NCBI GenBank assembly: GCA_032622095.1
Contig: CP136061.1
Span: 214,860,373-214,924,372 of the forward strand
DNA from: Siphonodentalium dalli
Taxonomy: Eukaryota > Mollusca > Scaphopoda > Gadilida > Siphonodentaliidae
DNA: 64,000 nt
Reading direction: 5' to 3'
Below are positions 5,974 through 56,400 of the stretch, piece after piece. Under the pieces are notes generated by a model. That model saw only the letters and a list, made by a program, of their open reading frames with translations, did no database searches and was not told where the DNA came from. Position 1 is the first letter of the stretch, and every line of letters starts with the position of its first letter. A program made the translations under genes and the position numbers.

Positions 5974-6094
5974 TATTATTGCGCCTGAATGAACCGGACT
6001 ACAACGCCGAAATAACCGGAATTTACTCTCACTTCGTGTTTAGAGTTGTTGCCCATCTGGGAATGCCAAGGTCGATGCCAATGTTTACTTCCGT

Positions 6095-7591
6095 TTGTTT
6101 TGGCAGTCTGCCGGAATAAAAATGGCAATGCAAGATTTATGGATGGATACTTTGTCAGACGATGAACTGGAACAAATTTTCCTTGGTCATGCTGCTGGCA
6201 ATATAACACATGAAGCACACACGGAGCCCGCTACTTCGACCGTGTCAGCCGTCGCTTCCCGATTCGTCGAGGTTTTGCCCGGTGATGTCCAGGCGTTCAA
6301 CGAGACACAACAAAATGTCAACACTGCTCGTAAAACGGCCTATGATGTGAATTTGCTGATGACATTTCTCAAAAGTGGCGGCGAAACAAGGCAACTGGAA
6401 TTTATCCCGCCGAAGGAGCTGTGTGAATACTTGTGCAATTTTGTCATTTCCGTCAGAAAACAGGATGGATCAGAATATGAACCTGTGAGTTTACGAGCAT
6501 TTCTATCCTCATTTGATAGATATCTTAAGAGCAGAGACTATGCAGTTTCAATAATAAACGACATTCAGTTTTCAAAGCTTAAAATAACATTAAAGAACAA
6601 ACAAAAACACCTAAAATCACAAGGTAAAGGAAACAAGCCGATGGCGGCGGATCCAATTTCTAACATGGATATGGACATCATGTACGAGAAAGGAGTTATG
6701 GGACCAACAAATCCAAAGTCCCTTCAGAATTCTATGTGGCTGGTGTGCGCCTTATATTTCGGAATGAGAACAGGAACCTAGACTCATGCATTACGATGGG
6801 GAGATATTGAGGTAAAAGTTGACGAGACTGGTCATAAATACCTTGTTTACAGCCAAGAGCGTAACACGAAAACGAGGACTGGCAGTAATCCACGAGACAT
6901 TCGCCAAACCAAACCACGAGCGTATGCTCTGGATGATTCAACTCGTGATCCTGTTTCTCTCTACGAACTATATGAGGCTAAACGACCTATCGACATGTGC
7001 CAAGCTGACAGCCCCTTCTTCCTCGCTGTGAATCACCAAGGATGGATGCGCGGAGATTGGTACAAAAGGAACGCCCTTGGTATTAACTCTTTATACGGGA
7101 TCATGAAGAATATGGTGGCAGATGCAGATATTGTAAGTGACAAGCGACTAACTCCATACAGCGTCAGGAAACACTTAGTACAGACCCTGAATGATGAAGG
7201 AATTCCACCGACACAGATTGTGCAGATTTCCGGACACAAAAATGTTAATTCCTTAAATAATTATTCCAGGATCAATGACGAACAATCGAAAACAATTTCT
7301 ACAATTCTCTCTAACAAACAACCAAGCAGTAAATCTTCAACCGCAACCCGTGAAATGGACATTTCGTTCAAAGAAAACACCAGCTTGAGTTCAGTTTTCT
7401 CCGGAAATACATTTCATGGTAGTGTAAATGTAAATTTTAATGCTTCGCAGAGTAGAAAGTTCACTAGTAGCAATGAAATGAATCTGTTCTGCTCCCAAGG
7501 ACCGAGATCACCTGTTAACAGCTATGATGGTCAGCGTAAGCCTTTCAAAAGGATCAGAGTTATCGAGAGTGACAGCGAAAACAGTCAATGA
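6095..7591 (+). pseudogene. Crypton/KIAA1958-like tyrosine recombinase, one stop
   Basis: One frame of about 498 codons is broken only by TAG at 6779-6781 (codon 229). The N-terminal half, to about residue 210, has the SAM-like core-binding character of tyrosine recombinases: a run near RKTAYDVNLLMTFL, then RAFLSSFDRYL. The catalytic half shows box I around R225 (YFGMRTGT, then the stop, then THALRWGDIE), R358 in a PYSVRKHL context, H381 in SGH and Y390 in NNYS. The usual R-x-x-R-H-Y set is thus present, with Ser-Val before the second Arg instead of the commoner His. Such enzymes cut and rejoin DNA through a 3'-phosphotyrosine, and Crypton-derived copies became host genes (KIAA1958, ZMYM, QRICH1 and KCTD1 families). 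The Ser/Asn-rich tail after about residue 405 carries a basic KPFKRIR patch. The start ATG at 6095 precedes a second in-frame ATG at 6122. The stop falls inside box I, so the copy is inactive unless read through or a sequence error. Confidence 0.8.
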
Positions 7592-17231: not shown

Positions 17232-17974
17232 TTTCTATTAGCATACCATCCCATGCTTAAGCTCAATAGCTTATATGGTCACACAGAAACAATTGAATTT
17301 ACCCTATAGTTGGACACATGTGTTGAATGCTGCATGTAATGCATAGCCATCGGCTGATAATAGCTCATTGGATATTAATTGGACCTTGTTGTTGAGCATC
17401 AGATTTTGCTGATTGCCAAAAGAAAATCCCTTCCAATTTCTCAGTGCAATTATTAAAATATACTAACTTTTAATAAACTTACGCCTCACAGTTGGCATAT
17501 TGAATGCAATCACAGTTGTAACAGTGTAAAATCATAATTTAAATAGTCTCATATGGTTATAGTTGAACATTTCAATGCACATACCTGACAGAGGCCATTG
17601 AATAAGAAGTTATTTGTTCAATCTAACATGGACAAAAAAGAGACCTAAAAAAAACTATTAAAAGCTGACATCATTACATATTTTCATTTATCATATGACT
17701 CAATCATTATTTACGTTGGAAACTATGTCATAAATCAATTTCATATCAATTACTAATTCATATCACCTTCCGATAATTTGATTGGTTTGTTGACAAAAAG
17801 TGTGTTCTGATTGGCTGAATGGCAGGTGGGGGGCGAGCCGCATCTCTGACTAAATACAGGTCAAATTCGTGCGCGTCAATCAACGCGATGCCGAAATTCT
17901 CGCAATTATAATCTTGAAATATATAGTTTTGGACATTGTTATACGATAAATAGAATATGTAATTCGTATTTATC

Positions 17975-18011
17975 TATTAGGCCATATAAAATAAAGTGTT
18001 TGTTTCTCAGG
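17975..18011. repeat. Left TIR of the 4.2-kb transposon
   Basis: Starts TATTAGGCCATATAAAATAA and ends TTTGTTTCTCAGG. It pairs with 22129-22165 (33/37). The sequence just outside (ataaatagaatatgtaattc at 17946) also occurs at 22371 in a hairpin outside the right end. Confidence 0.85.
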
Positions 18012-18651
18012 CAACTTTTTTTTCAAAATGGTGAGGCAGGGAGGAATTTATTTTATTAATTTATTTCAGGATTTTGTGAGCATGAGGCAGGTATTTATTA
18101 ATGAAAATATTTATTTATCCAGTATATTGAATATTCCTATAGCTATTCAAGTTGTTGGTGAACTTTGTGCTCTAAGGGGTGTATTAAATCTACCTGCACC
18201 TTTTCTGGCCCGATTAGGACCACGAAACACAACTGGGTCATGTACCTTTTGTAGCTATAGATGTCACCAAACATCTGTTTTTGTGAATAGTCAGTGCTGA
18301 TGTTCAAGCCCATTTTTAATAGTCAGGATAGAATAGAAACAAGCAGTATAATGCAATCATTTATTCATATTTGGATCATATTATTGCTTTTGTGAAAGAA
18401 AAATGAAGACAAAATATGTGACAAACTGTCATTCAAAATAGTCTAAGACAAAAGAATTTGCCATCACACCTCAAGTCTGGTGGGGGGGTAGTTTCAAAAC
18501 AAAATGTTTGCGCAAAAACAAAACAAAACACAAAAAGCCATCTTGGCTGTAATTTCTTAACAAGAACACACATGTAAGCCTGGTATAAAAGTGCATCATT
18601 GCATACAAAACACATACTTGTATAATACAATGCACTTGTCAACAATGCTTA

Positions 18652-21600
18652 TCATTTTTTGCGTTTTTTAGTCTGAGCACTTGATTTGACATTTTGGGCT
18701 TTCCTCCTCCTTGTTGTTATTGGGAACTTTGATGAACAATCAGAACATTGAGGGAAACAACCATCATTTTTCAGCAAATTATTGGCATCACCACATTTGA
18801 CACAAACATCAATAAAACAATGAGAGCTATAATAGGATGTTTCAATATCATTCAAACAGGTGAAATTCTTTATATACAGCTTGTCTAAAACTTTACTGGT
18901 CTGTGGTGCCTTCTCGAAGGAGATCAAGTCTCGAATGTTTGCACCACAGCTATAATCATAGTACTGTAATACTTTATCCAATATCTGTTTCTCAACTGAT
19001 GTGAGCATGGACTTACTGTGAAGAAGCCTGGGCTTATCACACTCAACACAAGTGAGATTTTGCTTTACATTTTTAGCAGTTTGGCCTGTCAGAGTGAATG
19101 GCAACTTATTTGAAGACTCACCAGTCACTACAACAGGCTTAGACTTATTAGATGGCCTGTGTGTCTCGGTAGTTTCTTTTTTACCATAGAGATCTTCGAA
19201 TTTCAGATAATGGTTCCCTGATTCATCTGGTACAGGGTCAGGAAAATTGTGGAGTTTACCAAAATTCTCTTCAGAAAGTCTTGGTGAACCACACATTTGA
19301 CAATTTAATGAACCACATTTCTTAATTGCAAAAGTGTATCGTTTGGATACACAGCAATGATCCATGAATTTCTGCAAAGATTTTTTACCTTTGAGGTCAG
19401 CTGCACTTTTGCCATTGTCACTGATTGTGTCATCTATCTCTTGGATAGCTTTCCAGAGTGATAAAATGTCAGAATCAGTGGCAGCTTGAAACATCTGGAA
19501 ATTTTTATCCTTTAAGGATAATCTACTGATCAAATTCTCAAGAAGTGACTTAACTGGGGCAAGACTTTCTCCAACTGCATCAGAGAGACCCTCATGTTTT
19601 TCTGCGGCTTTTCTTACTGATTTCATAGTATTACAAGACTTGAGCACCTTTTCGAATTTGTCATCAACATTTTTTCTCATCAAAGCAACACAATTTAAAG
19701 CCAAATTTATGATGCTCATAATACGTTCAGGAGGGTTTCTCCAAGAGGCATTTGGGGCCGTCCTTGCCGCAACCAACATGTCGAGGTCCAAGTATTTGAA
19801 AATGCTAATGAGAGATGCTTGGACACTTAAAAAATTTGTCCGGTGGTCAGGCCCACCGTCGGTATACAACAGTAAAATAGGGGGGACCTCATTCTGACCT
19901 TGAGACAACACATTTTTTAGCTCGGTCATGTGACGCAGAGGACTGGATGCTTCAAAAATATGATCTTTAACCCCTACATGTACAGCACCCCTGTAAAATG
20001 ACCCTTCAATGTTCTCCGGTATATCAATGTTCATTATCACACTTGGAATCACAGACATTTTGGAGAAATCGTGGTCAGATGCCGCCATGACTTTGTTCTC
20101 CGACACGATGACCTGACGTCCTCGATCTACAGCTGCTAGTGGGTTCCCTGGTTCGCCGACCTTGACAAAATGTTTATCGTCCATACATATCAGTGAACAG
20201 TGATCACGGTGCTGTATCGCCATCTCCCTGAGATACCTGAATATACCCGCGCAGTAATGGTCATCTTCATGTTTTGAACGGAAAACCCTCGCTTGAACCA
20301 TGAATTTGAGTCCCAAGTCACCAGTGTACTTCAATGAAGACGATGCATATGGGTTGCGTGGTGCAAACTGGTACCTAACACATTGTTCACTCGGTATCGG
20401 TGTACCGTCCTCGCAAAGTTTTTGAACTTGTCGAACCAAGTCCGGCACTGATATGGCATTAGCCAAATAAAGAAGTTTATCGTGCCTCCGGTCTTGACAA
20501 GTCTCTTCCACAACATTTTGTAAGTATTCCTTGCACTTGGCAAAGAATGTCGAGAATTGTTTTGGGCGGCCTTCATTCTGTGAACGCAAGTCCATAATTA
20601 TATCTGGGTCTTCCTCAGAGAATGCAAATTCAGTTCTCTCATCTATCAATTTAGACAATTTGTGCTCAGAAACAGAATTGTCTCCAGTTAACCGCTTATA
20701 AATTATTCGTAGTTTGTGAGATTTCACGTCACACATTCTACCACACATGACAGAAAATTGTCGCTTCATTTCTCTGGTGTGGTATTCAGGTAAGTCTGCT
20801 TTTAACTTCTGCACAATTTTTGCATTCAGGGCAAGAGTTTCATTTTCATCACAATCTGGCTCTGTTTTCCAAATGTAGTTATATGTTCCTAAATTGTTCC
20901 CATAAGAATATGAAAACATATATGTTTTCAAAGGCATAGCCTGCGGCAAGAAATGAATGTAATGTCGTCTGGCATCAGTATCTGATGGCGTGAAATTGTC
21001 CACAGATATTGGGGTAGAATATGCTGTATCTTCTAACGCATCAACAAGAGGTTTGTACTCCGATAATTCACGCACTGGTTGTGGTTGGCTTTGGTTGGCT
21101 TGCATGTTAATCCTCTGAGTTTCTAAATAAATCAAATACCGATGGATTGCTTCTACAAAGTCAAACAGCAGTGTTTTGATTTCTGTCCAGATAGCAGCTT
21201 TCAAGAATGGCTGCTCCAGCACATCATTCAAAGTGTCATTCAAGTCTATCAATTTTCTCGAGTCAAGTTTTTGAATTTTATGTTTAGATTTAGTCGGGTC
21301 GTTGAATCCAAAGAATTGATGGAATGGCGATGGAATATGACAGGCACGCTCTTCAAGTTTCTGATAATGTGGATCTATTAGCCATAAACAATCAGAAAAA
21401 GAACTCACAAATTGACGGCCTATCATATTCACACTGTCTTTGTTGAAGCCAACATGTTTGTCATCAAGCCATTGTAAAATTGCATTTGTCAGTTCATCTC
21501 TGTTGTTATTAACTTTCACTTTTGGGGGCAGAACTAACTCCTTTTGACTATTCATCATCAAAGTGAATGCATCCTTTACTCCGCTAGCTGCCTCCTTGTC

Positions 21601-21876
21601 AGCATCATTGTCTGTGTTCTGATGTTTTAAACAAAATCGAAAATATCTTCCGAAATGTTCGACAATTTCCGCCACAGAAATACAATCGTCCGACACGATA
21701 TCGAAATCGCCGTTTTTGGATTTTGACACCGCAACAATCCAGTCAGAACTATCGATGTCGCTGGATAAAATGTCTTGCTGCATTTCCCGAATTGTGCATG
21801 CTTTATCCACGCTACGTATCGACCATTTGGTCTCCGATTTATTGCGTTCAACGACGAAATTGATTAGCGTCGCCAT
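18652..21876 (-). CDS. Putative DDE-type transposase, 1074 aa
   Basis: An intact single-exon gene; the ATG at 21876 has a favourable context (A at -3, G at +4). The centre has the spacing of an RNase H-like DDE domain: D566/D567 in ICMDDKHF, D673 in LLYTDGGPDHR and E717 in WRNPPERIMS, giving about 106 residues between the Asp and 43 to the Glu. A conserved-looking VKVGEPGNPLAAVDRGR block follows the first Asp. Cysteine groups at C854/C859/C862, C943/C946 and C1025/C1028 with C1040/C1044/C1047 look like zinc-binding modules, and the tail is very basic (RRRK, KKRKK), suiting a nuclear DNA-binding protein. The N-terminal 90 residues include a possible ubiquitin-like or protein-interaction fold, not recognised with confidence. 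Placement between matching TIRs argues for a transposase. I cannot assign a named superfamily; the active-site assignment is inference from motif spacing. A domesticated host gene is less likely, given the TIRs. Confidence 0.75.
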   Translation of the reverse strand: MATLINFVVERNKSETKWSIRSVDKACTIREMQQDILSSDIDSSDWIVAVSKSKNGDFDIVSDDCISVAEIVEHFGRYFRFCLKHQNTDNDADKEAASGVKDAFTLMMNSQKELVLPPKVKVNNNRDELTNAILQWLDDKHVGFNKDSVNMIGRQFVSSFSDCLWLIDPHYQKLEERACHIPSPFHQFFGFNDPTKSKHKIQKLDSRKLIDLNDTLNDVLEQPFLKAAIWTEIKTLLFDFVEAIHRYLIYLETQRINMQANQSQPQPVRELSEYKPLVDALEDTAYSTPISVDNFTPSDTDARRHYIHFLPQAMPLKTYMFSYSYGNNLGTYNYIWKTEPDCDENETLALNAKIVQKLKADLPEYHTREMKRQFSVMCGRMCDVKSHKLRIIYKRLTGDNSVSEHKLSKLIDERTEFAFSEEDPDIIMDLRSQNEGRPKQFSTFFAKCKEYLQNVVEETCQDRRHDKLLYLANAISVPDLVRQVQKLCEDGTPIPSEQCVRYQFAPRNPYASSSLKYTGDLGLKFMVQARVFRSKHEDDHYCAGIFRYLREMAIQHRDHCSLICMDDKHFVKVGEPGNPLAAVDRGRQVIVSENKVMAASDHDFSKMSVIPSVIMNIDIPENIEGSFYRGAVHVGVKDHIFEASSPLRHMTELKNVLSQGQNEVPPILLLYTDGGPDHRTNFLSVQASLISIFKYLDLDMLVAARTAPNASWRNPPERIMSIINLALNCVALMRKNVDDKFEKVLKSCNTMKSVRKAAEKHEGLSDAVGESLAPVKSLLENLISRLSLKDKNFQMFQAATDSDILSLWKAIQEIDDTISDNGKSAADLKGKKSLQKFMDHCCVSKRYTFAIKKCGSLNCQMCGSPRLSEENFGKLHNFPDPVPDESGNHYLKFEDLYGKKETTETHRPSNKSKPVVVTGESSNKLPFTLTGQTAKNVKQNLTCVECDKPRLLHSKSMLTSVEKQILDKVLQYYDYSCGANIRDLISFEKAPQTSKVLDKLYIKNFTCLNDIETSYYSSHCFIDVCVKCGDANNLLKNDGCFPQCSDCSSKFPITTRRRKAQNVKSSAQTKKRKK

Positions 21877-22128
21877 GGTTAAAAAGCTTGATTTTTTATG
21901 ATTACGTCATGGCTTCCCCCGCATACGTCATGGGATTTCCTGCGCGAATTACTTCCCTTCCCGGAAGTTACAAACTCCGGACTGAATTAACTCCGTTTTT
22001 GCCGGCGAAACGCACTGACCCAAAGATACTTTTGTGGTGTTTTTTTACGAGAGGAATTTATTCATTTATTAATTTTTCAGACCTAATAAAGACTTACCAT
22101 GCGCAGGTTTTCCGAACGGGCGGCGATC

Positions 22129-22165
22129 CCTGAGAAACAAACTATTAATTTTATTTGGCCTAATA
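22129..22165. repeat. Right TIR of the 4.2-kb transposon
   Basis: The reverse complement starts TATTAGGCCAAATAAAATTA and ends TTTGTTTCTCAGG. It lies 253 nt upstream of the transposase-like start codon, so the promoter must be within or next to the TIR. Confidence 0.85.
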
Positions 22166-22370
22166 AACATACAATATAATGTCACAAACTGAGAACAGAA
22201 TAGCGCACTATATCTTCGCGTGCATATTATTTCTGCTAGTTCACCAGGTGTAATTGGGCTTCCGGTGCAATGAAGTGACGTCACATTAACCTTTTGCTGC
22301 CAATGTCATATAGCTATTTAGTGATTTGTGTGCGTTTTGGACATCATAATCAATTTATAGGTGTCATATA

Positions 22371-27514: not shown

Positions 27515-27647
27515 GCACTCTTGCGCATGCGCCAAATCGAGCTAAATTCACTCTGTACTTTGCGTTGTCGTGAACGGTCACGATTTCAATTTGTCGCAGA
27601 CAAATCTTTTGCGCCAAGCGAGTTGTATGTACAAAATATAAGTCATT

Positions 27648-28721
27648 ATGTCCCAGTTGGACAAGAACTTAGACCTTCCGGGCAGTTCGACGAACTGTGA
27701 TAAACTTATGGACGCCGTTCATAAACCGCCGGTTGTAAAACCGACCAAGCCTTTATCAAAAGGGAAGGCTCCCATTTCCGGGAAGGTTGCCACGAAAATG
27801 GGTGATATCACCCCACGTGGTAATGGCGATTCAGAAGTGCTTCGCCATTTGCAGCTTATTGCTGAAAATCAATCAAAGCAGGGAGCCAAGTTGGTGGATA
27901 TGGCCGAGAGGTTAGTTAACCTCGAAAACCAACAGTATGTGTATCCTGATTATTCCGCCAATGACGGTGATTGTAACTATTACGAATCCTATTCCAACGA
28001 CGTTGGCGACACGGAACAATTTCAACCAGATGAAGAATCTGTGGCAGCCGAAAAACAGGCACATTCCCGATTTACCGCGATGCGGAATAAGTTCGACTCG
28101 CAAGAGATTGTGGGTTCACATATAGACCCAATTCTTGCTGATTCTGTAACTAACATGTTTCGAAAAGGCATCGAGGATGACCAGTTTCAAAAAATGACAC
28201 GGGACGAAACCAATGCTAGACCTGAGAACTGTGAAGGTTTACAGGTCGTAAAAGTTAATCAACTTGTGTGGGACTTGATGTCCCAGCCTGCACGGACTTC
28301 TGACAAAAAGTTTCAGAATGTGGAAACCGCTCTGGTCAAGGCAGCTGTTATTCTCACAAAAATGGTTGATTCGGCGGCCCAGGTGGAAACTAGTAACCAG
28401 TTTCTCTCCACGGTTATTGATCAAACAAATGATGCTTTGGCTGTATTAGGGCATGGCAATTTCCTTCTAAATACGGTTCGGAAAGATCTCCTAAAACCGG
28501 AACTAAAAGGTGAATATGTTCATCTATGCCAACATTCACTGCCGTACACGGATTTCCTGTTCGGCGACGATGTCTCGAAAGCAGCAAGAGATATCGAAGA
28601 TACATGGAAAATTGGCAATAAAATGGTACATGGCTCGGGACGTGGAAAGTACCCGCCCAGAGGTCGTGGTCGTGGTGGCAGAGGTCACAGGGCAAAGCCG
28701 TACTCCCATCGTGAACAGTGA
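27648..28721 (+). CDS. DIRS Gag-like protein, 357 aa
   Basis: First gene of the DIRS element, from ATG 27648 (MSQLDKNLDLPGSS), 171 nt after the left inverted repeat begins. The N-terminal quarter is Lys/Pro/Ser-rich (KPPVVKPTKPLSKGKAP). The centre (about 80-310) is acidic to mixed and helix-prone, as in capsid-like Gag of this group. The C-terminus is a Gly/Arg-rich nucleic-acid-binding tail (GRGKYPPRGRGRGGRGHR) instead of CCHC knuckles. It presumably packages the element RNA. The stop overlaps the start of the RT frame by four bases, so RT translation could depend on frameshifting or reinitiation. No break is seen. The assignment rests on position and composition, since Gag sequences diverge strongly. 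Confidence 0.8.
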   Translation: MSQLDKNLDLPGSSTNCDKLMDAVHKPPVVKPTKPLSKGKAPISGKVATKMGDITPRGNGDSEVLRHLQLIAENQSKQGAKLVDMAERLVNLENQQYVYPDYSANDGDCNYYESYSNDVGDTEQFQPDEESVAAEKQAHSRFTAMRNKFDSQEIVGSHIDPILADSVTNMFRKGIEDDQFQKMTRDETNARPENCEGLQVVKVNQLVWDLMSQPARTSDKKFQNVETALVKAAVILTKMVDSAAQVETSNQFLSTVIDQTNDALAVLGHGNFLLNTVRKDLLKPELKGEYVHLCQHSLPYTDFLFGDDVSKAARDIEDTWKIGNKMVHGSGRGKYPPRGRGRGGRGHRAKPYSHREQ

Positions 28722-30778
28722 CCTACCGGTACCTATCCTGCCAGTTACTCGAGAGATCCAAAAAACGTACAGCGGGGATCCAGAGGGCGTGCTGGTCGTT
28801 AAATCGGCCTCCCACACAGGTATGTGAATGTCATCTTGATCCCGATCAGAAATTTATTGCGGGTAACCTTAAAAACTTTTTAGAAAATTGGCGAGCTCTC
28901 ACACGAGACCCAGTTATTCTTGATGTTGTTCAACATTGCCACATTGAGTTTGGTGAAAAAGGGCCACCTGTGCAAGCCACAGGAAAGTATGTCCAAAATC
29001 ATGTCAAATCATCAGAACTTGATCAGATTGATGATGCCATCGAAAAGCTTTTGGCACAAAAAGTCCTTCTTAAAGTCCCAGAAACTGAGGGGCAATATAT
29101 ATCGCCAATATTCATCCGACCTAAGCCAGATACCACTGAAGTGAGGTTGATTCTGAACTTGAAAAAATTTAACGAATTTGTTCCCTATCACCACTTCAAG
29201 ATGGAAACTTTTGAAGCAGCTTTGGCACTTATAAAACCAAACATGTTTATGTGCATTGCTGACATACGTCATGCTTACTACTCGGTCTTTTTGGCAGAAC
29301 AACATCAAAAATACTTCAGGTTTCGATGGAAGGGTTCTACTTACCAATACAATTGCCTTCCTAACGGGTTTGCGGCGGCACCCCGATTATTCACAAAGCT
29401 AATGAAACCTGTTTTTTCTAACCTGCGATTGCAAGGTTACCTAAATACCAGCTTTATTGACGATACTCTCTGTATGGCTAATACAGAAGAAGACTGCGTC
29501 AGAAATGTGCATGCTACTATCACATTACTTACCAACCTGGGTTTCATGATTCACCCAATAAAGTCCGTGCTGAAACCCACTCAAGAAATCACTTTTCTGG
29601 GCAATATTATTAATACTGTGACCATGACGGTTCACTTACCTCCAGATAAAATAAACAGGGTCAAAGACTCCTGTTCAAGTATGTCCAAATTGTCATTTAG
29701 TACCATTCGAGAAGTGGCTCGTGTTATTGGCATACTGATTTCAACCTTTGCGGCTGTCGAATATGGAAGGCTGCATTATCGAGTACTGGAACTCAATAAG
29801 GTTAACGCACTCCGACAAAGTGCTGGTCGGTTTGATGCTTTGATGCCTATAACACAAGCCATGAAGCATGAACTTGCATGGTGGTTTCTAAATATAGAAA
29901 GTCAGGTTCGGCATATCATTAGAGCCACTCCCTCTATAACGATTTACACAGATAGTAGCCTCAAAGGTTGGGGAGCTGTTCAATCTGGTCACTCTGTAGG
30001 TGGCCGTTGGTCAGTGTCTGAAAGTAACATGCACATAAATTTTTTGGAAATGTTAGCAATCAAATTTGCATTACAAGCTTTCATGGCGAAATTGAGAAAT
30101 AAAAATGTGTTAATATTAACTGACAGCACAACTGCCATGGCATACATTAAAAACATGGGTGGGATGAAATCCCTCAAATGTAATTCTCTTAGTCAAGCCA
30201 TATGGAACCTATGTCATGCTAATGGGATTTGGTTATTCTGTTCTCACATACCTGGATCGAAAAATGTAGCTGATGGTCCTTCAAGGGTCTTTAATGATCG
30301 ACTAGATTGGGAACTGCATGAAAATGTGTTCAATGACATCTGCCAGCTCTGGGGTATCCCCAACATTGATCTTTTTGCTTCTAGACTAAATGCAAAAACA
30401 CCATTATACTGTGCATGGAAAATGGAGCCTGAGGCTACCCATATTGATGCATTCACCTTGAATTGGGGAAACTATGATTTATGTTATCTATTTCCACCTT
30501 TCAGTTTAATAGCTCGCTGCATTCAGAATATCAGTCAGGATCGGGCCACATGCATCATGATCCTTCCATTGTGGCCCACACAACCATGGTATCCTTTGGT
30601 GAGGGACCTCATGGTAGACAGTCCCAGAGTTCTTCCAAAGGCGCAGGATTTACTGCAGCTACCGCGGCAGAAGACGGTACATCCACTCTTCCCACACTTG
30701 ACGTTGATCGCCTGCAAAGTGTTCAGCAACAATACAGCTGTGCTGGATTTTTATCGCAAGCAACCTCTATTCTTATGA
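28718..30778 (+). CDS. DIRS reverse transcriptase / RNase H
   Basis: The second frame, open for 686 codons, copies element RNA to DNA and removes the RNA strand. RT motifs lie between about residues 100 and 310: ISPIFIRPKPD, VRLILNLKKFN, D182 in CIADIRHAYYS, the PNGFAAAPRLFTKLM block, and the catalytic D248-D249 in SFIDDTL (F-x-D-D variant of YxDD). RNase H follows with D412 (YTDSSLKGWG), E444 (FLEMLA), D469 (LTDSTTA) and D519 (NVADGPSR); all four acidic residues are present. The segment after 525 (IDLFASRLNAKTPLYCAW, WPTQPWYPLV) is typical of DIRS polymerases. The first codon is GTG, so initiation is not at this point in a normal way; expression as a Gag fusion by -1/+2 frameshift in the overlap is likely. 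No stop or frameshift is seen, so the polymerase could be functional. Confidence 0.92.
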   Translation: MTYRYLSCQLLERSKKRTAGIQRACWSLNRPPTQVCECHLDPDQKFIAGNLKNFLENWRALTRDPVILDVVQHCHIEFGEKGPPVQATGKYVQNHVKSSELDQIDDAIEKLLAQKVLLKVPETEGQYISPIFIRPKPDTTEVRLILNLKKFNEFVPYHHFKMETFEAALALIKPNMFMCIADIRHAYYSVFLAEQHQKYFRFRWKGSTYQYNCLPNGFAAAPRLFTKLMKPVFSNLRLQGYLNTSFIDDTLCMANTEEDCVRNVHATITLLTNLGFMIHPIKSVLKPTQEITFLGNIINTVTMTVHLPPDKINRVKDSCSSMSKLSFSTIREVARVIGILISTFAAVEYGRLHYRVLELNKVNALRQSAGRFDALMPITQAMKHELAWWFLNIESQVRHIIRATPSITIYTDSSLKGWGAVQSGHSVGGRWSVSESNMHINFLEMLAIKFALQAFMAKLRNKNVLILTDSTTAMAYIKNMGGMKSLKCNSLSQAIWNLCHANGIWLFCSHIPGSKNVADGPSRVFNDRLDWELHENVFNDICQLWGIPNIDLFASRLNAKTPLYCAWKMEPEATHIDAFTLNWGNYDLCYLFPPFSLIARCIQNISQDRATCIMILPLWPTQPWYPLVRDLMVDSPRVLPKAQDLLQLPRQKTVHPLFPHLTLIACKVFSNNTAVLDFYRKQPLFL

Positions 30779-31687
30779 GTTCGTGGAGAACCTCCACCAA
30801 ACAACAGTATCAAGTGTATCTTCAGAGGTGGTTTGACTACTGCAAGCGACAGGATGTTCCTCCCTTCTCGCCATCTGTCCCCAACGTTATCGAATTTCTA
30901 ATGAGACTATTCCAAAAAGGGCTCGGCTATAGTGCTCTAAATACTGCCAGATCGGCACTGTCAGCGGTGGGGATTCGACTCGACAACTCTCCAGCGGGAG
31001 GAAATTCAACTGTTATACGTTTCATGAAGGGTGTATTTAACATGCGTCTACCTTCTGCTCCGACAGCTATTACCTGGGATGTTAACTCTGTTCTGCAATA
31101 TCTCCGAACTCTGTCACCTGTACGGCATTTGCCATTTAAGCCTTAAAAAGTTATCACTAAAACTATTAATGTTGATTGCTCTTCTAAATGTGGCGAGAGT
31201 TCAAACCTTGCATTTAATTTCAATTAATGAACGGCGAAGTACGCGTTCACAGTACGTGTTTAATTTGAGCGGTCTACTCAAGCAAAGCCGAGCAGGCTTT
31301 AACCCCCAGACATTGGAACTGAGGGCATATCTTCCAGATAGGAGGTTGTGTGTATATACGGTTATCAAGGAATATTTAGTTCGTACGCGAGGACTGCGTC
31401 AGGACGAGTCGTCCCTTTTCATAAGTTATGTGAAGCCACACAAAAAAGTTTCACGCGATACCATAGCTCGTTGGATAAAGACAGTTATGGCCAGTTCTGG
31501 TATTAACATTAAGGACTACTCATCTCATAGTGTGCGAGCGGCTAGCTCATCCAAAGCCTTCAAGCAAAATGTGCCTATCAAAGATATTATGGCGAAAGCA
31601 GGCTGGACTGCTGAGTCTACATATAAGAAGTTTTACTTGAAACACACTAATACCGATCAGTTTGCAGAAGCAGTTCTCCAAACATAG
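30481..31687 (+). pseudogene. DIRS tyrosine recombinase, one-base frameshift
   Basis: The third gene overlaps the 3' 300 nt of the polymerase in another frame. The first part (to 31146) holds the core-binding domain: SSWRTSTKQQYQVYLQRW, then FSPSVPNVIEFLMRLF and LGYSALNTARSALSAV. The frame ends at TAA 31144-31146, and coding resumes one base out of step (LKKLSLKLLMLIALLNVARV). One missing T near 31141 explains both halves. The second part has R (31196, NVARVQTLH), H-x-x-R (31526-31537, SSHSVRAAS) and the nucleophile Tyr (31622, STYKKFY). The usual second His is replaced by Trp/Thr-like residues (KAGWTAES), as is common in DIRS. This enzyme would insert the circular DNA without target duplication. 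The true start may be ATG 30589. A sequencing error or a programmed shift cannot be excluded. Confidence 0.85.
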
Positions 31688-44454: not shown

Positions 44455-47400
44455 TTGACAACCATGCACGACTTCAGCCCAATTTTAGAAAATTTGGAAG
44501 GGGCTGTATGGTCGCGTGACTTTCCTATAGTTGCCCGCGGGGTGGCACCGCACGACAATACAAGGATTCCCGGGTGACCACCATGACTCAGGATACGGCA
44601 GCCGAATTTAGTAACGAAAAGTGCTATTTTGACACCCCATGCACGACTTCAGCCCAATTTTAGAAAATTTGGAAGGGGCTGCATGGTCGCGTGACTTTCC
44701 TATAGTTGCCCGCGGGGTGGCACCGCACGAAAATACAAGGATTCCCGAGTTGCCACCATGACTCAGGATACGGCAGCCGATTTAGTAACGAAAAGTGCTA
44801 TTTTGACACCCCATGCACGACTTCAGCCCAATTTTAGAAAATTTGGAAGGGGCTGCATGGTCGCGTGACTTTCCTATAGTTGCCCGCGGGGTGGCACCGC
44901 ACGAAAATACAAGGATTCCCGGGTGACCACCATGACTCAGGATACGGCAGCCGATTTAGTAACGAAAAGTGCTATTTTGACACCCCATGCACGACTTCAG
45001 CCCAATTTTAGAAAATTTGGAAGGGGATGCATGGTCGCGTGACTTTCCTATAGATGCCAGCTGGGTGGCACCGCACGAAAATACAAGGATTCCCGGGTGA
45101 CCACCATGACTCAGGGTACGGCAGCCGATTTAGTAACGAAAAGTGCTATTTTGACACCCCATGCACGACTTCAGCCCAATTTTTGAAAAATTGGAAGGGG
45201 CTGCATGGTCGCGTGACTTTCGTATAGTTGCCCGCGGGTTGGCACCGCACGAAAATACAAGGATTCCCGGGTTGCCACCATGACTCAGGATATGGCAGCC
45301 GATTTAGTAACGAAAAGTGCTATTTTGACACCCCTTGCACGACTTCAGCCCAATTTTAGAAAATTTGGAAGGGGCTGCATGGTCGCGTGACTTTCCTATA
45401 GTTGCCCGCGGGGTGGCACCGCACGAAAATACAAGGATTTCCGGGTTGCCACCATGACTCAGGATACGGCAGCCGATTTAGTAACGAAAAGTGCTATTTT
45501 GACACCCCATGCACGACTTCAGCCCAATTTTAGAAAATTTGGAAGGGGCTGCATGGTCGCGTGACTTTCCTATAGTTGCCCGCGGGGTGGCACCGCACGA
45601 AAATACAAGGATTCCCGGGTTGCCACCATGACTCAGGATACGGCAGCCAATTTAGTAACGAAAAGTGCTATTTTGACACCCCATGCACGACTTCAGCCCA
45701 ATTTTTAAAAATTTGGAAGGGGCTGTATGGTCGCGTGACTTTCCTATAGATGTCAGCTGGGTGGCACCGCACGAATATACAAGGATTCCCGGGTGACCAC
45801 CATGACTCAGGATACGGCAGCCGATTTAGTAACGAAAAGTGCTATTTTGACACCCCATGCACGACTTCAGCCCAATTTTAGAAAATTGGGAAGGGGCTGC
45901 ATGGTCGCGTGACTTTCCTATAGTTGCCCGCGGGGTGGCACCGCACGAAAGTACAAGGATTCCCGGGTGACCACCATTACTCAGGATACGGCAGCCGATT
46001 TAGTAACGAAAAGTGCTATTTTGACACCCCATGCACGACTTCAGCCCAATTTTAGAAAATTTGGAAGGGGCTGCATGGTCGCGTGACTTTCCTATAGTTG
46101 CCCGCGGGGTGGCACCGCACGAAAATACAAGGATTCCCGGGTGACCACCATGACTCAGGATACGGCAGCCGATTTAGTAACGAAAAGTGCTATTTTGACA
46201 CCCCATGCACGACTTCAGCCCAATTTTAGAAAATTTGGAAGGGGCTGCATGGTCGCGTGACTTTCCTATAGTTTCCCGCGGGGTGGCACCACACGAAAAT
46301 ACAAGGATTCCCGGGTTTCCACCATGACTCAGGATACGGCAGCCGATTTAGTAACGAAAAGGGCTATTTTGACACCCCATGCACGACTTCAGCCCAATTA
46401 GAAAATTTGGAAGGGGCTGCATGGTCGCGTGACTTTCCTATAGTTGCCCGCGGGGTGGCACCGCGCGAAAATACAAGGATTCCCGGGTTTCCACCATGAC
46501 TCAGGATACGGCAGCCGATTTAGTAACGAAAAGGGCTATTTTGACACCCCATGCACGACTTCGGCCCAATTAGAAAATTTGGAAGGGGCTGCATGGTCGC
46601 GTGACTTTCCTATAGTTGCCCGCGGGGTGGCACCGCACGACAATACAAGGATTCCCGGGTGACCACCATGACTCACGATACGGCAGCCGATTTAGTAACG
46701 AAAAGTGCTATTTTGACACCCCATGCACGACTTCAGCCCAATTTTAGAAAATTTGGAAGGGGCTGCATGGTCGCGTGACTTTCCTATAGTTGCCCGCGGG
46801 GTGGCACCGCACGAAAATACAAGGATTCCCGAGTTGCCACCATGACTCAGGATACGGCAGCCGATTTAGTAACGAAAAGTGCTATTTTGACACCCCATGC
46901 ACGACTTCAGCCCAATTTTAGAAAATTTGGAAGGGGCTGCATGGTCGCGTGACTTTCCTATAGTTTCCCGCGGGGTGGCACCGCACGAAAATACAAGGAT
47001 TCCCGGGTGACCACCATGACTCAGGATACGGCAGCCGATTTAGTAACGAAAAGTACTATTTTGACACCCCATGCACGACTTCAGCCCAATTTTAGAAAAT
47101 TTGGAAGGGGCTGCATGGTCGCGTGACTTTCCTATAGTTGCCCGCGGGGTGGCACCGCACGAAAATACAAGGATTCCCGGGTGACCACCATTACTCAGGA
47201 TACGGCAGCCGATTTAGTAACGAAAAGTGCTATTTTGACACCCCATGCACGACTTCAGCCCAATTTTAGAACATTTGGAAGGGGCTGCATGGTCGCGTGA
47301 CTTTCCTATAGATGCCAGCTGGGTGGCACCGCACGAAAATACAAGGATTCCCGGGTGACCACCATGACTCAGGATACGGCAGCCGATTTAGTAACGAAAA

Positions 47401-50400
47401 GTGCTATTTTGACAACCATGCACGACTTCAGCCCAATTTTAGAAAATTTGGAAGGGGCTGCATGGTCGCGTGACTTTCCTATAGTTGCCCGCGGGGTGGC
47501 ACCGCACGACAATACAAGGAATCCCGGGTGACCACCATGACTCAGGATACGGCAGCCGATTTAGTAACGAAAAGTGCTATTTTGACACCCCATGCACGAC
47601 TTCAGCCCAATTTTAGAAAATTTGGAAGGGGCTGCATGGTCGCGTGACTTTCCTATAGTTGCCCGCGGGGTGGCACCGCACGAAAATACAAGGATTCCCG
47701 AGTTGCCACCATGACTCAGGATACGGCAGCCGATTTAGTAACGAAAAGTGCTATTTTGACACCCATGCACGACTTCAGCCCAATTTTAGAAAATTTGGAA
47801 GGGGCTGCATGGACGCGTGACTTTCCTATAGTTGCCCGCGGGGTGGCACCGCACGAAAATACAAGGATTCCCGGGTGACCACCATGACTCAGGATACGGC
47901 AGCCGATTTAGTAACGAAAAGTGCTATTTTGACACCCCATGCACGACTTCAGCCCAATTTTAGAAAATTTGGAAGGGGCTGCATGGTCGCGTGACTTTCC
48001 TATAGATGCCAGCTGGGTGGCACCGCTCGAAAATACAAGGATTCCCGGGTGACCACCATGACTCAGGGTACGGCAGCCGATTTAGTAACGAAAAGTGCTA
48101 TTTTGACACCCCATGCACGACTTCAGCCCAATTTTTGAAAATTTGGAAGGGGCTGCATGGTCGCGTGACTTTCGTATAGTTGCCCGCGGGTTGGCACCGC
48201 ACGAAAATACAAGGATTCCCGGGTTGCCACCATGACTCAGGATACGGCAGCCGATTTAGTAACGAAAAGTGCTATTTTGACACCCCTTGCACGACTTCAG
48301 CCCAATTATAGAAAATTTGGAAGGGGCTGCATGGTCGCGTGACTTTCCTATAGTTGCCCGCGGGGTGGCACCGCACGAAAATACAAGGATTCCCGGGTGA
48401 CCACCATGACTCAGGATACGGCAGCCGATTTAGTAACGAAAAGTGCTATTTTGACACCCCATGCACGACTTCAGCCCAATTTTAGAAAATTTGGAAGGGG
48501 CTGCATGGTCGCGTGACTTTCCTATAGTTTCCCGCGGGGTGGCACCGCACGAAAATACAAGGATTCCCGGGTTTCCACCATGACTCAGGATACGGCAGCC
48601 GATTTAGCAACGAAAAGGGCTATTTTGACACCCCATTCACGACTTCGGCCCAATTAGAAAATTTGGAAGGGGCTGCATGGTCGCGTGACTTTCCTATAGT
48701 TGCCCTCGGGGTGGCACCGCACGACAATACAAGGATTCCCGGGTGACCACCATGACTCAGGATACGGCAGCCGATTTAGTAACGAAAAGTGCTATTTTGA
48801 CACCCCATGCACGACTTCAGCCCAATTTTAGAAAATTTGGAAGGGGCTGCATGGTCGCGTGACTTTCCTATAGTTGCCCGAGGGGTGGCACCGCACGAAA
48901 ATACAAGGATTCCCGAGTTGCCACCATGACTCAGGATACGGCAGCCGATTTAGTAACGAAAAGTGCTATTTTGACACCCCATGCACGACTTCAGCCCAAT
49001 TTTAGAAAATTTGGAAGGGGCTGCATGGTCGCGTGACTTTCCTATAGTTGCCCGCGGGGTGGCACCGCACGAAAATACAAGGATTCCCGGGTGACCACCA
49101 TGATTCAGGATACGGCAGCCGATTTAGTAACGAAAAGTGCTATTTTGACACCCCATGCACGACTTCAGCCCAATTTTAGAAAATTTGGAAGGGGCTGCAT
49201 GGTCGCGTGACTTTCCTATAGTTGCCCGCGGGGTGGCACCGCACGGAAATACAAGGATTCCCGGGTGACCACCATTACTCAGGATACGGCAGCCGATTTA
49301 GTAACGAAAAGTGCTATTTTGACACCCCATGCACGACTTCAGCCCAATTTTAGAACATTTGGAAGGGGCTGCATGGTCGCGTGACTTTCCTATAGATGCC
49401 AGCTGGGTGGCACCGCACGAAAATACAAGGATTCCCGGGTGACCACCATGACTCAGGATACGGCAGCCGATTTAGTAACGAAAAGTGCTATTTTGACAAC
49501 CATGCACGACTTCAGCCCAATTTTAGAAAATTTGGAAGGGGCTGTATGGTCGCGTGACTTTCCTATAGTTGCCCGCGGGGTGGCACCGCACGACAATACA
49601 AGGATTCCCGGGTGACCACCATGACTCAGGATACGGCAGCCGATTTAGTAACGAAAAGTGCTATTTTGACACCCCATGCACGACTTCAGCCCAATTTTAG
49701 AAAATTTGGAAGGGGCTGCATGGTCGCGTGACTTTCCTATAGTTGCCCGCGGGGTGGCACCGCACGAAAATACAAGGATTCCCGAGTTGCCACCATGACT
49801 CAGGATACGGCAGCCGATTTAGTAACGAAAAGTGCTATTTTGACACCCCATGCACGACTTCAGCCCAATTTTAGAAAATTTGGAAGGGGCTGCATGGTCG
49901 CGTGACTTTCCTATAGTTGCCCGCGGGGTGGCACCGCACGAAAATACAAGGATTCCCGGGTGACCACCATGACTCAGGATACGGCAGCCGATTTAGTAAC
50001 GAAAAGTGCTATTTTGACACCCCATGCACGACTTCAGCCCAATTTTAGAAAATTTGGAAGGGGATGCATGGTCGCGTGACTTTCCTATAGATGCCAGCTG
50101 GGTGGCACCGCACGAAAATACAAGGATTCCCGGGTGACCACCATGACTCAGGGTACGGCAGCCGATTTAGTAACGAAAAGTGCTATTTTGACACCCCATG
50201 CACGACTTCAGCCCAATTTTTGAAAAATTGGAAGGGGCTGCATGGTCGCGTGACTTTCGTATAGTTGCCCGCGGGTTGGCACCGCACGAAAATACAAGGA
50301 TTCCCGGGTTGCCACCATGACTCAGGATATGGCAGCCGATTTAGTAACGAAAAGTGCTATTTTGACACCCCTTGCACGACTTCAGCCCAATTTTAGAAAA

Positions 50401-53400
50401 TTTGGAAGGGGCTGCATGGTCGCGTGACTTTCCTATAGTTGCCCGCGGGGTGGCACCGCACGAAAATACAAGGATTTCCGGGTTGCCACCATGACTCAGG
50501 ATACGGCAGCCGATTTAGTAACGAAAAGTGCTATTTTGACACCCCATGCACGACTTCAGCCCAATTTTAGAAAATTTGGAAGGGGCTGCATGGTCGCGTG
50601 ACTTTCATATAGTTGCCTGCGGGGTGGCACCGCACGAAAATACAAGGATTCCCGGGTGTCCACCATGACTCGGAATACGGCAGCCGATTTAGTAACGAAA
50701 AGTGCTATTTTGACACCCCATGCACGACTTCAGCCCAATTTTAGAAAATTTGGAAGGGGCTGCATGGTCGCGTGACTTTCCTATAGTTGCCCGCGGGGTG
50801 GCACCGCACGAAAATACAAGGATTCCCGGGTGTCCACCATGACTCAGGATACGGCAGCCGATTTAGTAACGAAAAGTGCTATTTTGACACCCCATGCACG
50901 ACTTCAGCCCAATTTTATAAAATTTGGAAGGGGCTGCATGGTCGCGTGACTTTCCTATAGTTGCCCGCGGGGTGGCACCGCACGAAAATACAAGGATTCC
51001 CGGGTGACTATTATGACTCAGGATACGGCAGCCGATTTAGTAACGAAAAGTGCTATTTTGACACCCCATGCACGACTTGAGCCCAATTTTAGAAAATTTG
51101 GAAGGGGCTGCATGGTCGCGTGACTTTCCTATAGTTGCCCGCGGGGTGGCACCGCTCGAAAATACAAGGATTCCCGGGTGTCCACCATGACTCAGGATAC
51201 GGCAGCCGATTTAGTAACGAAAAGTGCTATTTTGACACCCCATGCACGACTTCAGCCCAATTTTATAAAATTTGGAAGGGGCTGTATGGTCGCGTGACTT
51301 TCCTATAGATGCCAGCTGGGTGGCACCGCACGAAAATACAAGGATTCCCGGGTGACCACCATGACTCAGGATACGGCAGCCGATTTAGTAACGAAAAGTG
51401 CTATTTTGACACCCCATGCACGACTTCAGCCCAATTTTAGAAAATTTGGAAGGGGCTGCATGGTCGCGTGACTTTCCTATAGTTGCCCGCGGGGTGGCAC
51501 CGCACGAAAATACAAGGATTCCCGGGTGACCACCGTTACTCAGGATACGGCAGCCGATTTAGTAACGAAAAGTGCTATTTTGACACCCCATGCACGACTT
51601 CAGCCCAATTTTAGAACATTTGGAAGGGGCTGCATGGTCGCGTGACTTTCCTATAGATGCCAGCTGGGTGGCACCGCACGAAAATACAAGGATTCCCGGG
51701 TGACCACCATGACTCAGGATACGGCAGCCGATTTAGTAACGAAAAGTGCTATTTTGACAACCATGCACGACTTCAGCCCAATTTTAGAAAATTTGGAAGG
51801 GGCTGCATGGTCGCGTGACTCTCCTATAGTTGTCCGCGGGGTGGCACCGCACGACAATACAAGGATTCCCGGGTGACCACCATGACTCAGGATACGGCAG
51901 CCGATTTAGTAACGAAAAGTGCTATTTTGACACCCCATGCACGACTTCAGCCCAATTTTAGAAAATTTGGAAGGGGCTGCATGGTCGCGTGACTTTCCTA
52001 TAGTTGCCCGCGGGGTGGCACCGCACGAAAATACAAGGATTCCCGAGTTGCCACCATGACTCAGGATACGGCAGCCGATTTAGTAACGAAAAGTGCTATT
52101 TTGACACCCATGCACGACTTCAGCCCAATTTTAGAAAATTTGGAAGGGGCTGCACGGTCGCGTGACTTTCCTATAGTTGCCCGCGGGGTGGCACCGCACG
52201 AAAATACAAGGATTCCCGGGTGACCACCATGACTCAGGATACGGCAGCCGATTTAGTAACGAAAAGTGCTATTTTGACACCCCATGCACGACTTCAGCCC
52301 AATTTTAGAAACTTTGGAAGGGGCTGCATGGTCGCGTGACTTTCCTATAGATGCCAGCTGGGTGGCACCGCACGAAAATACAAGGATTCCCGGGTGACCA
52401 CCATGACTCAGGGTACGGCAGCCGATTTAGTAACGAAAAGTGCTATTTTGACACCCCATGCACGACTTCAGCCCAATTTTTGAAAATTTGGAAGGGGCTG
52501 CATGGTCGCGTGACTTTCGTATAGTTGCCCGCGGGTTGGCACCGCACGAAAATACAAGGATTCCCGGGTTGCCACCATGACTCAGGATACGGCAGCCGAT
52601 TTAGTAACGAAAAGTGCTATTTTGACACCCCTTGCACGACTTCAGCCCAATTATAGAAAATTTGGAAGGGGCTGCATGGTCGCGTGACTTTCCTATAGTT
52701 GCCCGCGGGGTGGCACCGCACGAAAATACAAGGATTCCCGGGTGACCACCATGAATCAGGATACGGCAGCCGATTTAGTAACGAAAAGTGCTATTTTGAC
52801 ACCCCATGCATGACTTCAGCCCAATTTTAGAAAATTTGGAAGGGGCTGCATGGTCGCGTGACTTTCCTATAGTTTCTCGCGGGGTGGCACCGCGCGAAAA
52901 TACAAGGATTCCCGGGTTTCCACCATGACTCAGGATACGGCAGCCGATTTAGTAACGAAAAGGGCTATTTTGACACCCCATGCACGACTTCGGCCCAATT
53001 AGAAAATTTGGAAGGGGCTGCATGGTCGCGTGACTTTCCTATAGTTGCCCGCGGGGTGGCACCGCACGACAATACAAGGATTCCCGGGTGACCACCATGA
53101 CTCAGGATACGGCAGCCGATTTAGTAACGAAAAGTGCTATTTTGACACCCCATGCACGACTTCAGCCCAATTTTAGAAAATTTGGAAGGGGCTGCATGGT
53201 CGCGTGACTTTCCTATAGTTGCCCGCGGGGTGGCACCGCACGAAAATACAAGGATTCCCGAGTTGCCACCATGACTCAGGATACGGCAGCCGATTTAGTA
53301 ACGAAAAGTGCTATTTTGACACCCCATGCACGACTTCAGCCCAATTTTAGAAAATTTGGAAGGGGCTGCATGGTCGCGTGACTTTCCTATAGTTGCCCGC

Positions 53401-56400
53401 GGGGTGGCACCGCACGAAAATACAAGGATTCCCGGGTGACCACCATGACTCAGGATACGGCAGCCGATTTAGTAACGAAAAGTGCTATTTTGACACCCCA
53501 TGCACGACTTGAGCCCAATTTTAGAAAATTTGGAAGGGGCTGCATGGTCGCTTGACTTTCCTATAGTTGCCCGCGGGGTGGCACCGCACGAAAATACAAG
53601 GATTCCCGGGTGACCACCATTACTCAGGATACGGCAGCCGATTTAGTAACGAAAAGTGCTATTTTGACACCCCATGCACGACTTCAGCCCAATTTTAGAA
53701 CATTTGGAAGGGGCTGCATGGTCGCGTGACTTTCCTATAGATGCCAGCTGGGTGGCACCGCACGAAAATACAAGGATTCCCGGGTGACCACCATGACTCA
53801 GGATACGGCAGCCGATTTAGTAACGAAAAGTGCTATTTTGACACCCCATGCACGACTTCAGCCCAATTTTAGAAACTTTGGAAGGGGCTGCATGGTCGCG
53901 TGACTTTCCTATAGATGCCAGCTGGGTGGCACCGCACGAAAATACAAGGATTCCCGGGTGACCACCATGACTCAGGGTACGGCAGCCGATTTAGTAACGA
54001 AAAGTGCTATTTTGACACCCCATGCACGACTTCAGCCCAATTTTTGAAAATTTGGAAGGGGCTGCATGGTCGCGTGACTTTCGTATAGTTGCCCGCGGGT
54101 TGGCACCGCACGAAAATACAAGGATTCCCGGGTTGCCACCATGACTCAGGATACGGCAGCCGATTTAGTAACGAAAAGTGCTATTTTGACACCCCTTGCA
54201 CGACTTCAGCCCAATTATAGAAAATTTGGAAGGGGCTGCATGGTCGCGTGACTTTCCTATAGTTGCCCGCGGGGTGGCACCGCACGAAAATACAAGGATT
54301 CCCGGGTGACCACCATGAATCAGGATACGGCAGCCGATTTAGTAACGAAAAGTGCTATTTTGACACCCCATGCATGACTTCAGCCCAATTTTAGAAAATT
54401 TGGAAGGGGCTGCATGGTCGCGTGACTTTCCTATAGTTTCTCGCGGGGTGGCACCGCGCGAAAATACAAGGATTCCCGGGTTTCCACCATGACTCAGGAT
54501 ACGGCAGCCGATTTAGTAACGAAAAGGGCTATTTTGACACCCCATGCACGACTTCGGCCCAATTAGAAAATTTGGAAGGGGCTGCATGGTCGCGTGACTT
54601 TCCTATAGTTGCCCGCGGGGTGGCACCGCACGACAATACAAGGATTCCCGGGTGACCACCATGACTCAGGATACGGCAGCCGATTTAGTAACGAAAAGTG
54701 CTATTTTGACACCCCATGCACGACTTCAGCCCAATTTTAGAAAATTTGGAAGGGGCTGCATGGTCGCGTGACTTTCCTATAGTTGCCCGCGGGGTGGCAC
54801 CGCACGAAAATACAAGGATTCCCGAGTTGCCACCATGACTCAGGATACGGCAGCCGATTTAGTAACGAAAAGTGCTATTTTGACACCCCATGCACGACTT
54901 CAGCCCAATTTTAGAAAATTTGGAAGGGGCTGCATGGTCGCGTGACTTTCCTATAGTTGCCCGCGGGGTGGCACCGCACGAAAATACAAGGATTCCCGGG
55001 TGACCACCATGACTCAGGATACGGCAGCCGATTTAGTAACGAAAAGTGCTATTTTGACACCCCATGCACGACTTGAGCCCAATTTTAGAAAATTTGGAAG
55101 GGGCTGCATGGTCGCGTGACTTTCCTATAGTTGCCCGCGGGGTGGCACCGCACGAAAATACAAGGATTCCCGGGTGACCACCATTACTCAGGATACGGCA
55201 GCCGATTTAGTAACGAAAAGTGCTATTTTGACACCCCATGCACGACTTCAGCCCAATTTTAGAACATTTGGAAGGGGCTGCATGGTCGCGTGACTTTCCT
55301 ATAGATGCCAGCTGGGTGGCACCGCACGAAAATACAAGGATTCCCGGGTGACCACCATGACTCAGGATACGGCAGCCGATTTAGTAACGAAAAGTGCTAT
55401 TTTGACAACCATGCACGACTTCAGCCCAATTTTAGAAAATTTGGAAGGGGCTGCATGGTCGCGTGACTTTCCTATAGTTGCCCGCGGGGTGGCACCGCAC
55501 GACAATACAAGGAATCCCGGGTGACCACCATGACTCAGGATACGGCAGCCGATTTAGTAACGAAAAGTGCTATTTTGACACCCCATGCACGACTTCAGCC
55601 CAATTTTAGAAAATTTGGAAGGGGCTGCATGGTCGCGTGACTTTCCTATAGTTGCCCGCGGGGTGGCACCGCACGAAAATACAAGGATTCCCGAGTTGCC
55701 ACAATGACTCAGGATACGGCAGCCGATTTAGTAACGAAAAGTGCTATTTTGACACCCATGCACGACTTCAGCCCAATTTTAGAAAATTTGGAATGGGCTG
55801 CATGGTCGCGTGACTTTCCTATAGTTGCCCGCGGGGTGGCACCGCACGAAAATACAAGGATTCCCGGGTGACCACCATGACTCAGGATACGGCAGCCGAT
55901 TTAGTAACGAAAAGTGCTATTTTGACACCCCATGCACGACTTCAGCCCAATTTTAGAAAATTTGGAAGGGGCTGCATGGTCGCGTGACTTTCCTATAGAT
56001 GCCAGCTGGGTGGCACCGCACGAAAATACAAGGATTCCCGGGTGACCACCATGACTCAGGGTACGGCAGCCGATTTAGTAACGAAAAGTGCTATTTTGAC
56101 ACCCCATGCACGACTTCAGCCCAATTTTTGAAAATTTGGAAGGGGCTGCATGGTCGCGTGACTTTCGTATAGTTGCCCGCGGGTTGGCACCGCACGACAA
56201 TACAAGGATTCCCGGGTGACCACCATGACTCAGGATACGGCAGCCGATTAAGTAACGAAAAGTGCTATTTTGACACCCCATGCACGACTTCAGCCCAATT
56301 TTAGAAAATTTGGAAGGGGCTGCATGGTCGCGTGACTTTCCTATAGTTGCCCGCGGGGTGGCACCGCACGACAATACAAGGATTCCCGGGTGACCACCAT

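Follow-up and report, generated by a model that had tools for sequence, protein, structure and literature searches.

The locus described here raises the question of whether a gene for a 1,074-aa protein, lying between inverted repeats, belongs to a mobile element and, if so, to which lineage of transposases that element should be assigned. It lies in a 64,000-nt stretch of the genome of the scaphopod mollusc Siphonodentalium dalli (GenBank assembly GCA_032622095.1, contig CP136061.1, positions 214,860,373 to 214,924,372 of the forward strand), which in its entirety is referred to as the window. An earlier note, made from the sequence alone, had seen in it a possibly undescribed DNA transposon. 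As argued below, the feature is very probably a recently moved copy of a family of autonomous cut-and-paste DNA transposons, with the protein of about 1,100 aa as its transposase. The transposon itself is real and belongs to a recently mobile family with a Harbinger-like target, and its large transposase matches no family in the libraries searched (Pfam, NCBIfam, PDB, and PHROGs).

The two inverted repeats (17975-18011 and 22129-22165) pair over 37 nt without a gap and match at 33/37 positions (89%), exactly as the earlier note had counted. As a control, the best 37-mer was taken from each of 20 randomly chosen pairs of 200-bp regions, with about 4 kb between the two members of a pair; this gave 18-25 of 37 matches, which rules out chance inverted repeats. 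A search of the 2.23-Gb assembly (9 contigs) with the window protein returned at least 49 match rows of 100% to 36% identity (best 43 of 1,307 candidates), some of them spanning nearly the entire protein without a stop, and when the query was instead the L015 protein, which diverges most among the sequences of our 13-sequence alignment (A1), at least 41 rows and further groups were returned (best 41 of 758 candidates). The relatives in this genome form at least 11 groups, with a mutual identity of at most 69%. For the analysis of the ends, we assembled 18 distinct copies, including the window copy, with both ends seen in 16 and one end only in L006 and L018. All 16 run precisely from GGCC to GGCC, over lengths of 4,152 to 5,323 bp, and in near-identical copies at unrelated loci (e.g., L001/L002 and L007/L008) the likeness stops at these GGCC ends. 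Moreover, a terminal inverted repeat (TIR) core, GTTTCTCAGG, is common to the window copy, L001-L005, L019, and deletion derivatives. With other copies found that carry the same TIRs, the proposal of an autonomous-looking DNA transposon stands, as does the TIR pair on which the span of 17975-22165 had been drawn; the element itself, however, is confined to 17980-22160, and the outer letters are target DNA.

The flanking trinucleotide is identical on both sides in 15 of the 16 two-ended copies and is always TTA or TAA, the exception being the window copy. Because L003 and L004 represent one and the same insertion within duplicated DNA, this corresponds to 14 of 15 independent insertions with a duplication. 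By chance, in the window, equal 3-mers have a probability of 0.018 and equal TTA or TAA one of 0.0009. The two trinucleotides are a single site seen on opposite strands, which is entered in both orientations. In an additional copy (L055), one of the TIRs starts with GGCA, yet the flank is TTA on either side. In a second clade (clade B, L056-L060), the alignment of L058 and L059 ends on the right after GGCC-TAA in both; on the left, no end could be identified for this pair, and L056, L057, and L060 yielded no ends. The hint of Harbinger that the earlier note had taken from the GGCC termini was an apt one, given that TTA/TAA duplications are made as in PIF/Harbinger.

To look for sites without the element, 13 joined flanks, each with a single copy of the trinucleotide, were searched against the genome. 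The junctions of L001, L002, and L012 are spanned at 99-100% identity (best 40 of 7,417 candidates), and the remaining ten of the 13 have no row among these best 40, because they were taken up by high-copy repeats. When searched alone, the window junction gave at least 40 rows at 97-99% (best 40 of 64 candidates). The eight empty sites that we fetched close exactly, on TAA for L001 and the window copy and on TTA for L002 and L012, so that four insertions, and with them the mobility of the family, are supported in this way. All five fetched empty sites of the window copy carry the sequence ATTTATC-TAA-TAAACATAC; in the filled site, ATTTATC-TATTA stands to the left of the element and TAA to its right. 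It follows that this insertion entered a TAA and that two extra bases now split its left duplicate, which is why the earlier note had seen no three-base duplication in these flanks, a view that the empty sites overturn. TA or TTAA targets, which the window flanks might suggest, are ruled out by the 15/16 three-base duplications together with the four empty sites. The DNA hit by this insertion (17880-17979 and 22161-22270) is itself a repeat, with at least 40 other places that are 97-99% identical.

Elements that retain the ends without most of the gene also occur in the genome. These deletion derivatives include L030 (974 bp, flanked by TTA/TTA) and L031 (965 bp, flanked by TAA/TAA), both with their two ends kept, and L032, which is flanked by TTA/TTA and keeps both ends, one of its TIRs being mutated to GGAC. 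The right end of L035 is degraded. Eight others (L036-L043) have a left end about 80% alike to that of the element, with a TIR as in L005, and show the left end only within the 1 kb fetched; TTA or TAA flanks it in 5/8.

In the window copy, the protein is encoded in a single frame from ATG to stop. Here, we compared it with its relatives in A1 and in a second alignment of 14 sequences, which, as L055 lacks the region, gives 13 rows in eleven groups that are at most 69% identical (lowest pairwise identity of 29%). The acid triad of DDE (Asp-Asp-Glu)/RNase H transposases has its putative counterpart in D566/D567, D673, and E717, which are found where the earlier note had placed them and are invariant in 13/13 rows of both alignments, at a distance of 106 residues from D567 to D673 and of 44 from D673 to E717. 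Judged by eye, the DDE order appears to be followed by the hydrophobic stretches that precede D566 and D673 and by a helix-like stretch around E717. The cysteine clusters are likewise conserved, in that C854, C859, C862, C943, C946, C977, C1007, C1025, C1028, C1044, and C1047 are invariant in 13/13 rows, and position 841 is C in 8 rows and H in 5. Between subfamilies, the proportion of differing synonymous sites is saturated (pS 0.77-0.86), as against 0.19-0.50 for non-synonymous sites (pN), a sign of selection on the protein.

From L001, the window copy differs at 14 single bases and by one gap of 60 bp. The missing segment is kept in L001, L002, L003, and L004, and its 20 residues are recognisable in other subfamilies; since it encodes residues that these subfamilies keep, the gap is an in-frame deletion and reading it as an intron is ruled out. 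Accordingly, of the earlier picture of one intact gene in a transposon apparently still intact, the open frame of 1,074 aa holds, but the protein is shortened by 20 conserved residues. The other ATG frames of at least 80 aa in the window copy are one of 90 aa, which has no Pfam match, and a second, of 81 aa, nested within the gene in a different reading frame.

On this reading, the protein of about 1,100 aa would consist of an N-terminal half, an RNase H-type DDE core (with D566 or D567, D673, and E717), C-terminal cysteine clusters that may bind zinc, and a basic tail that could target it to the nucleus. Acting as the cutting enzyme, it would pair both GGCC-ended TIRs and excise the element, with the DDE triad doing the cutting and joining. 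The element would then be inserted at TTA (TAA on the opposite strand), where the two strands would be cut with a 3-bp stagger, and repair would convert this stagger into the 3-bp duplication; the order of these steps is likewise a proposed one.

Several results weigh against this reading. Not one of the 13 A1 members has a Pfam transposase match at E<=10, the rows returned being unrelated and below the cut-off, and the same is true of L056-L060 and L015. This is so even though other frames of the window match Pfam clearly and, in the same genome, the Harbinger model PF13359 scores at 150 places. NCBIfam contains no match to the window protein, and neither does the PDB at the sequence level; against the PDB, the A1 profile returned five rows at the level of chance (best E of 0.12), and PHROGs returned only weak rows of unknown function, for three proteins. 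For the window protein as for its relatives, the statement of the earlier note that it could name no family thus proved accurate for these libraries. With hhalign, comparison with sets taken from this genome for Harbinger, rve, and MULE gave probabilities of 0.08%, 0.49%, and 0.55%, respectively, from poor and shallow profiles in which two Harbinger rows (L022 and L023) are fragments of about 100 aa and the rve and MULE rows are nearly alike. Single-sequence AlphaFold runs on residues 496-800 and 545-745 gave no usable model, with a mean pLDDT (predicted local distance difference test) of 35.8 and 33.9. The RNase H fold is accordingly a putative one. Moreover, D601, D603, D699, and E652 are just as invariant as the triad, so conservation does not single the latter out, and the near-identical pairs (window/L001 and L012/L014), with just 4 synonymous changes alongside 5 or 4 non-synonymous ones, are too alike to be informative on selection. 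As for the target, derivative L034 is flanked by TAG/TAA, the readable right end of L033 (damaged on the left) is flanked by ATA, and 3/8 of the left-end-only derivatives are flanked by TAT (L037 and L040) or AAT (L041); this may reflect a less strict target in some derivatives or decay of the copies concerned.

There is a substantial possibility, short of an even chance, that the lineage already has a name in Repbase, e.g., as a relative of Academ (AcademX) or as an unusual Harbinger, and is absent only from the libraries searched. AcademX has target-site duplications of 3 or 4 bp (PMC10045372), and curated bivalve Academ elements average 5,565 bp (PMC10294476), both of which would suit such a relationship. 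The duplication lengths of the two Academ lineages, however, seem tied to the encoded helicase or nuclease (PMC10045372), and no nuclease or helicase model matched in our scan, which was of the transposase-like proteins and a single frame of 90 aa, not of all frames of the longer elements; as for Harbinger, no scanned protein has a match to PF13359, despite the 150 places of this model in the genome. No relatives were found in phages, nor in viral contigs or prokaryote genomes, where a prefilter on short peptide patterns can miss distant relatives. Our literature search, judged by titles and the starts of abstracts, found no paper on this group, from which we do not claim its absence from print.

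A second explanation, which we consider unlikely, would have a canonical PIF/Harbinger transposase mobilise the element in trans, leaving the large protein as a passenger or accessory factor. A TWA target (W, A or T) and a TIR starting with G are as in PIF/Harbinger (PMC4482050), and this genome is rich in canonical Harbinger genes, yet throughout the groups of the end analysis the large protein and the GGCC ends go together, and the protein carries the conserved DDE-like triad. That the core GTTTCTCAGG is present in 0/10 fetched Harbinger loci argues weakly in the same direction, because the ends of those Harbingers, and more generally the TIRs of canonical Harbingers in this genome, were not resolved when we attempted it. 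As to a gene that merely happens to sit between chance inverted repeats and is no mobile element, this is contradicted by the empty sites, the duplications, the other same-ended copies, and the chance control, and is exceedingly improbable.

Returning to a transposon moved by its own large protein, a further-reaching reading, less likely than not, would make it a new eukaryotic DDE lineage of superfamily rank, one that has come to the TWA target of Harbinger and to GGCC ends with an unrelated single-protein transposase more than twice as large, has recently moved, and may still be active in this genome. Repbase superfamilies are counted as 24 (PMC12730594) or 23 (PMC10045372), and its non-autonomous elements are classed by the length of the duplication and the first 11 terminal bases, while E<0.005 is its threshold for placing a protein in a superfamily (PMC4455052). 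If the lineage is a separate one, two transposases without detectable similarity serve the same 3-bp target and GGCC ends, and the target plus the first bases would be insufficient to call short GGCC-ended TTA/TAA elements Harbinger. The near-identical copies with open frames further recommend the family, if it is active, as a candidate transposon tool whose target is strict.

Table 1. Coordinates of the element in the window and of its parts.
Feature	Position	Strand	Basis
Whole transposon, 4,181 bp	17980..22160	- (gene strand)	GGCC to GGCC; likeness between copies stops and empty sites close there
Left target duplicate, disrupted	17975..17979	.	TATTA against TAA in the empty sites (5/5 fetched)
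Right target duplicate, TAA	22161..22163	.	Flank comparison of copies; empty sites
Left terminal inverted repeat, GGCCATATAAAATAAAGTGTTTGTTTCTCAGG	17980..18011	+	TIR comparison; core GTTTCTCAGG
Right terminal inverted repeat	22129..22160	-	Inverted-repeat match; copy comparison
1,074-aa protein, putative DDE-type transposase	18652..21876	-	ATG-to-stop frame; alignments; conservation between subfamilies
D566 and D567 codons, putative first catalytic acid	20176..20181	-	Invariant in 13/13 covering rows
D673 codon (TDGGPDHR), putative second catalytic acid	19858..19860	-	Invariant in 13/13 rows
E717 codon (WRNPPERIMS), putative third catalytic acid	19726..19728	-	Invariant in 13/13 rows
C-terminal cysteine-rich region, C841 to C1047, then basic tail	18736..19356	-	11 cysteines invariant in 13/13 rows
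Site of 60-bp in-frame deletion (20 aa)	21056..21057	.	Segment present in L001-L004 and, at the protein level, in other subfamilies

Other repeats were seen along the way. A different GGCC-ended repeat, GGCCAATGCATTCTCTTATATA, adjoins TTA/TAA in L026 (4804-5010) and L059 (5432), and is possibly a miniature inverted-repeat transposable element (MITE). In the window, 44455-59227 is a satellite-like tandem array of 85 copies of a 174-bp unit (96% matches), with a G+C content above that of its surroundings, and 27642-31687 holds a DIRS-like retroelement, with a reverse transcriptase/RNase H frame followed by one that matches Phage_integrase (tyrosine recombinase). Two in-register frames with one stop between them (6044-7591) match QRICH1 (below the cut-off) and Phage_integrase/DUF3504, and we read them as a Crypton-like or related tyrosine recombinase gene.

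Among known systems, the integrase-type (rve) enzymes bear a likeness to the present protein, as judged by eye, in the overall order of motifs, with a D at the end of a strand, DGGPDH at the place where integrases have DNGxEF, and an E in the following helix. The best sub-threshold alignment with the rve profile (probability of 0.49%) puts E717 on the E of the integrase 'QCER' stretch, which we take to be the catalytic one. There is, however, no significant similarity to the protein, and integrase relatives have termini of the TG..CA type (PMC10045372), in contrast to GGCC here. Zator shares the 3-bp duplications and resembles the prokaryotic ISAzo13 (PMC10045372), but the corresponding PF07592 (DDE_Tnp_ISAZ013) does not match the proteins scanned; a genome search with PF07592 gave no matches anywhere and, having no positive control, is uninformative. 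Academ, which we compared by description only, is alike in the length of its elements (PMC10294476) and, for AcademX, in duplications of 3 or 4 bp against 3 bp here; AcademX is linked to a nuclease (PMC10045372), whereas none is found among the Pfam matches of the scanned proteins, with the scope given above.

A further comparison is with PIF/Harbinger, whose elements make TWA duplications, have TIRs that as a rule begin with A or G, and in most cases carry two open reading frames (ORFs), for a DDE/helix-turn-helix transposase and a Myb/SANT protein (PMC4482050). The likeness lies in the 3-bp TWA duplication (15/16 copies and four empty sites, with some derivatives that do not fit), in TIRs that start with G (GGCC at both ends in 16/16, with GGCA at one end of L055 and GGAC at one end of L032), and in the total length, 4,181 bp here against an average of about 4,124 bp (PMC4482050). 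By contrast, a single protein of about 1,100 aa here takes the place of the Harbinger transposase and its Myb/SANT partner, and the Harbinger frames of the same genome reach at most 524 aa among the matches listed. A further difference is the spacing of the acids, 106 residues from D567 to D673 and 44 from D673 to E717. PF13359 is unmatched at E<=10 in the 13 A1 members, L056-L060, and L015, and the frames of the window copy include no Myb/SANT second ORF, a search to which the 81-aa frame, intron-containing genes, and the other groups did not belong. With two Harbinger features present and two missing as far as tested, the element is therefore Harbinger-like at its target but not to be filed as a Harbinger.

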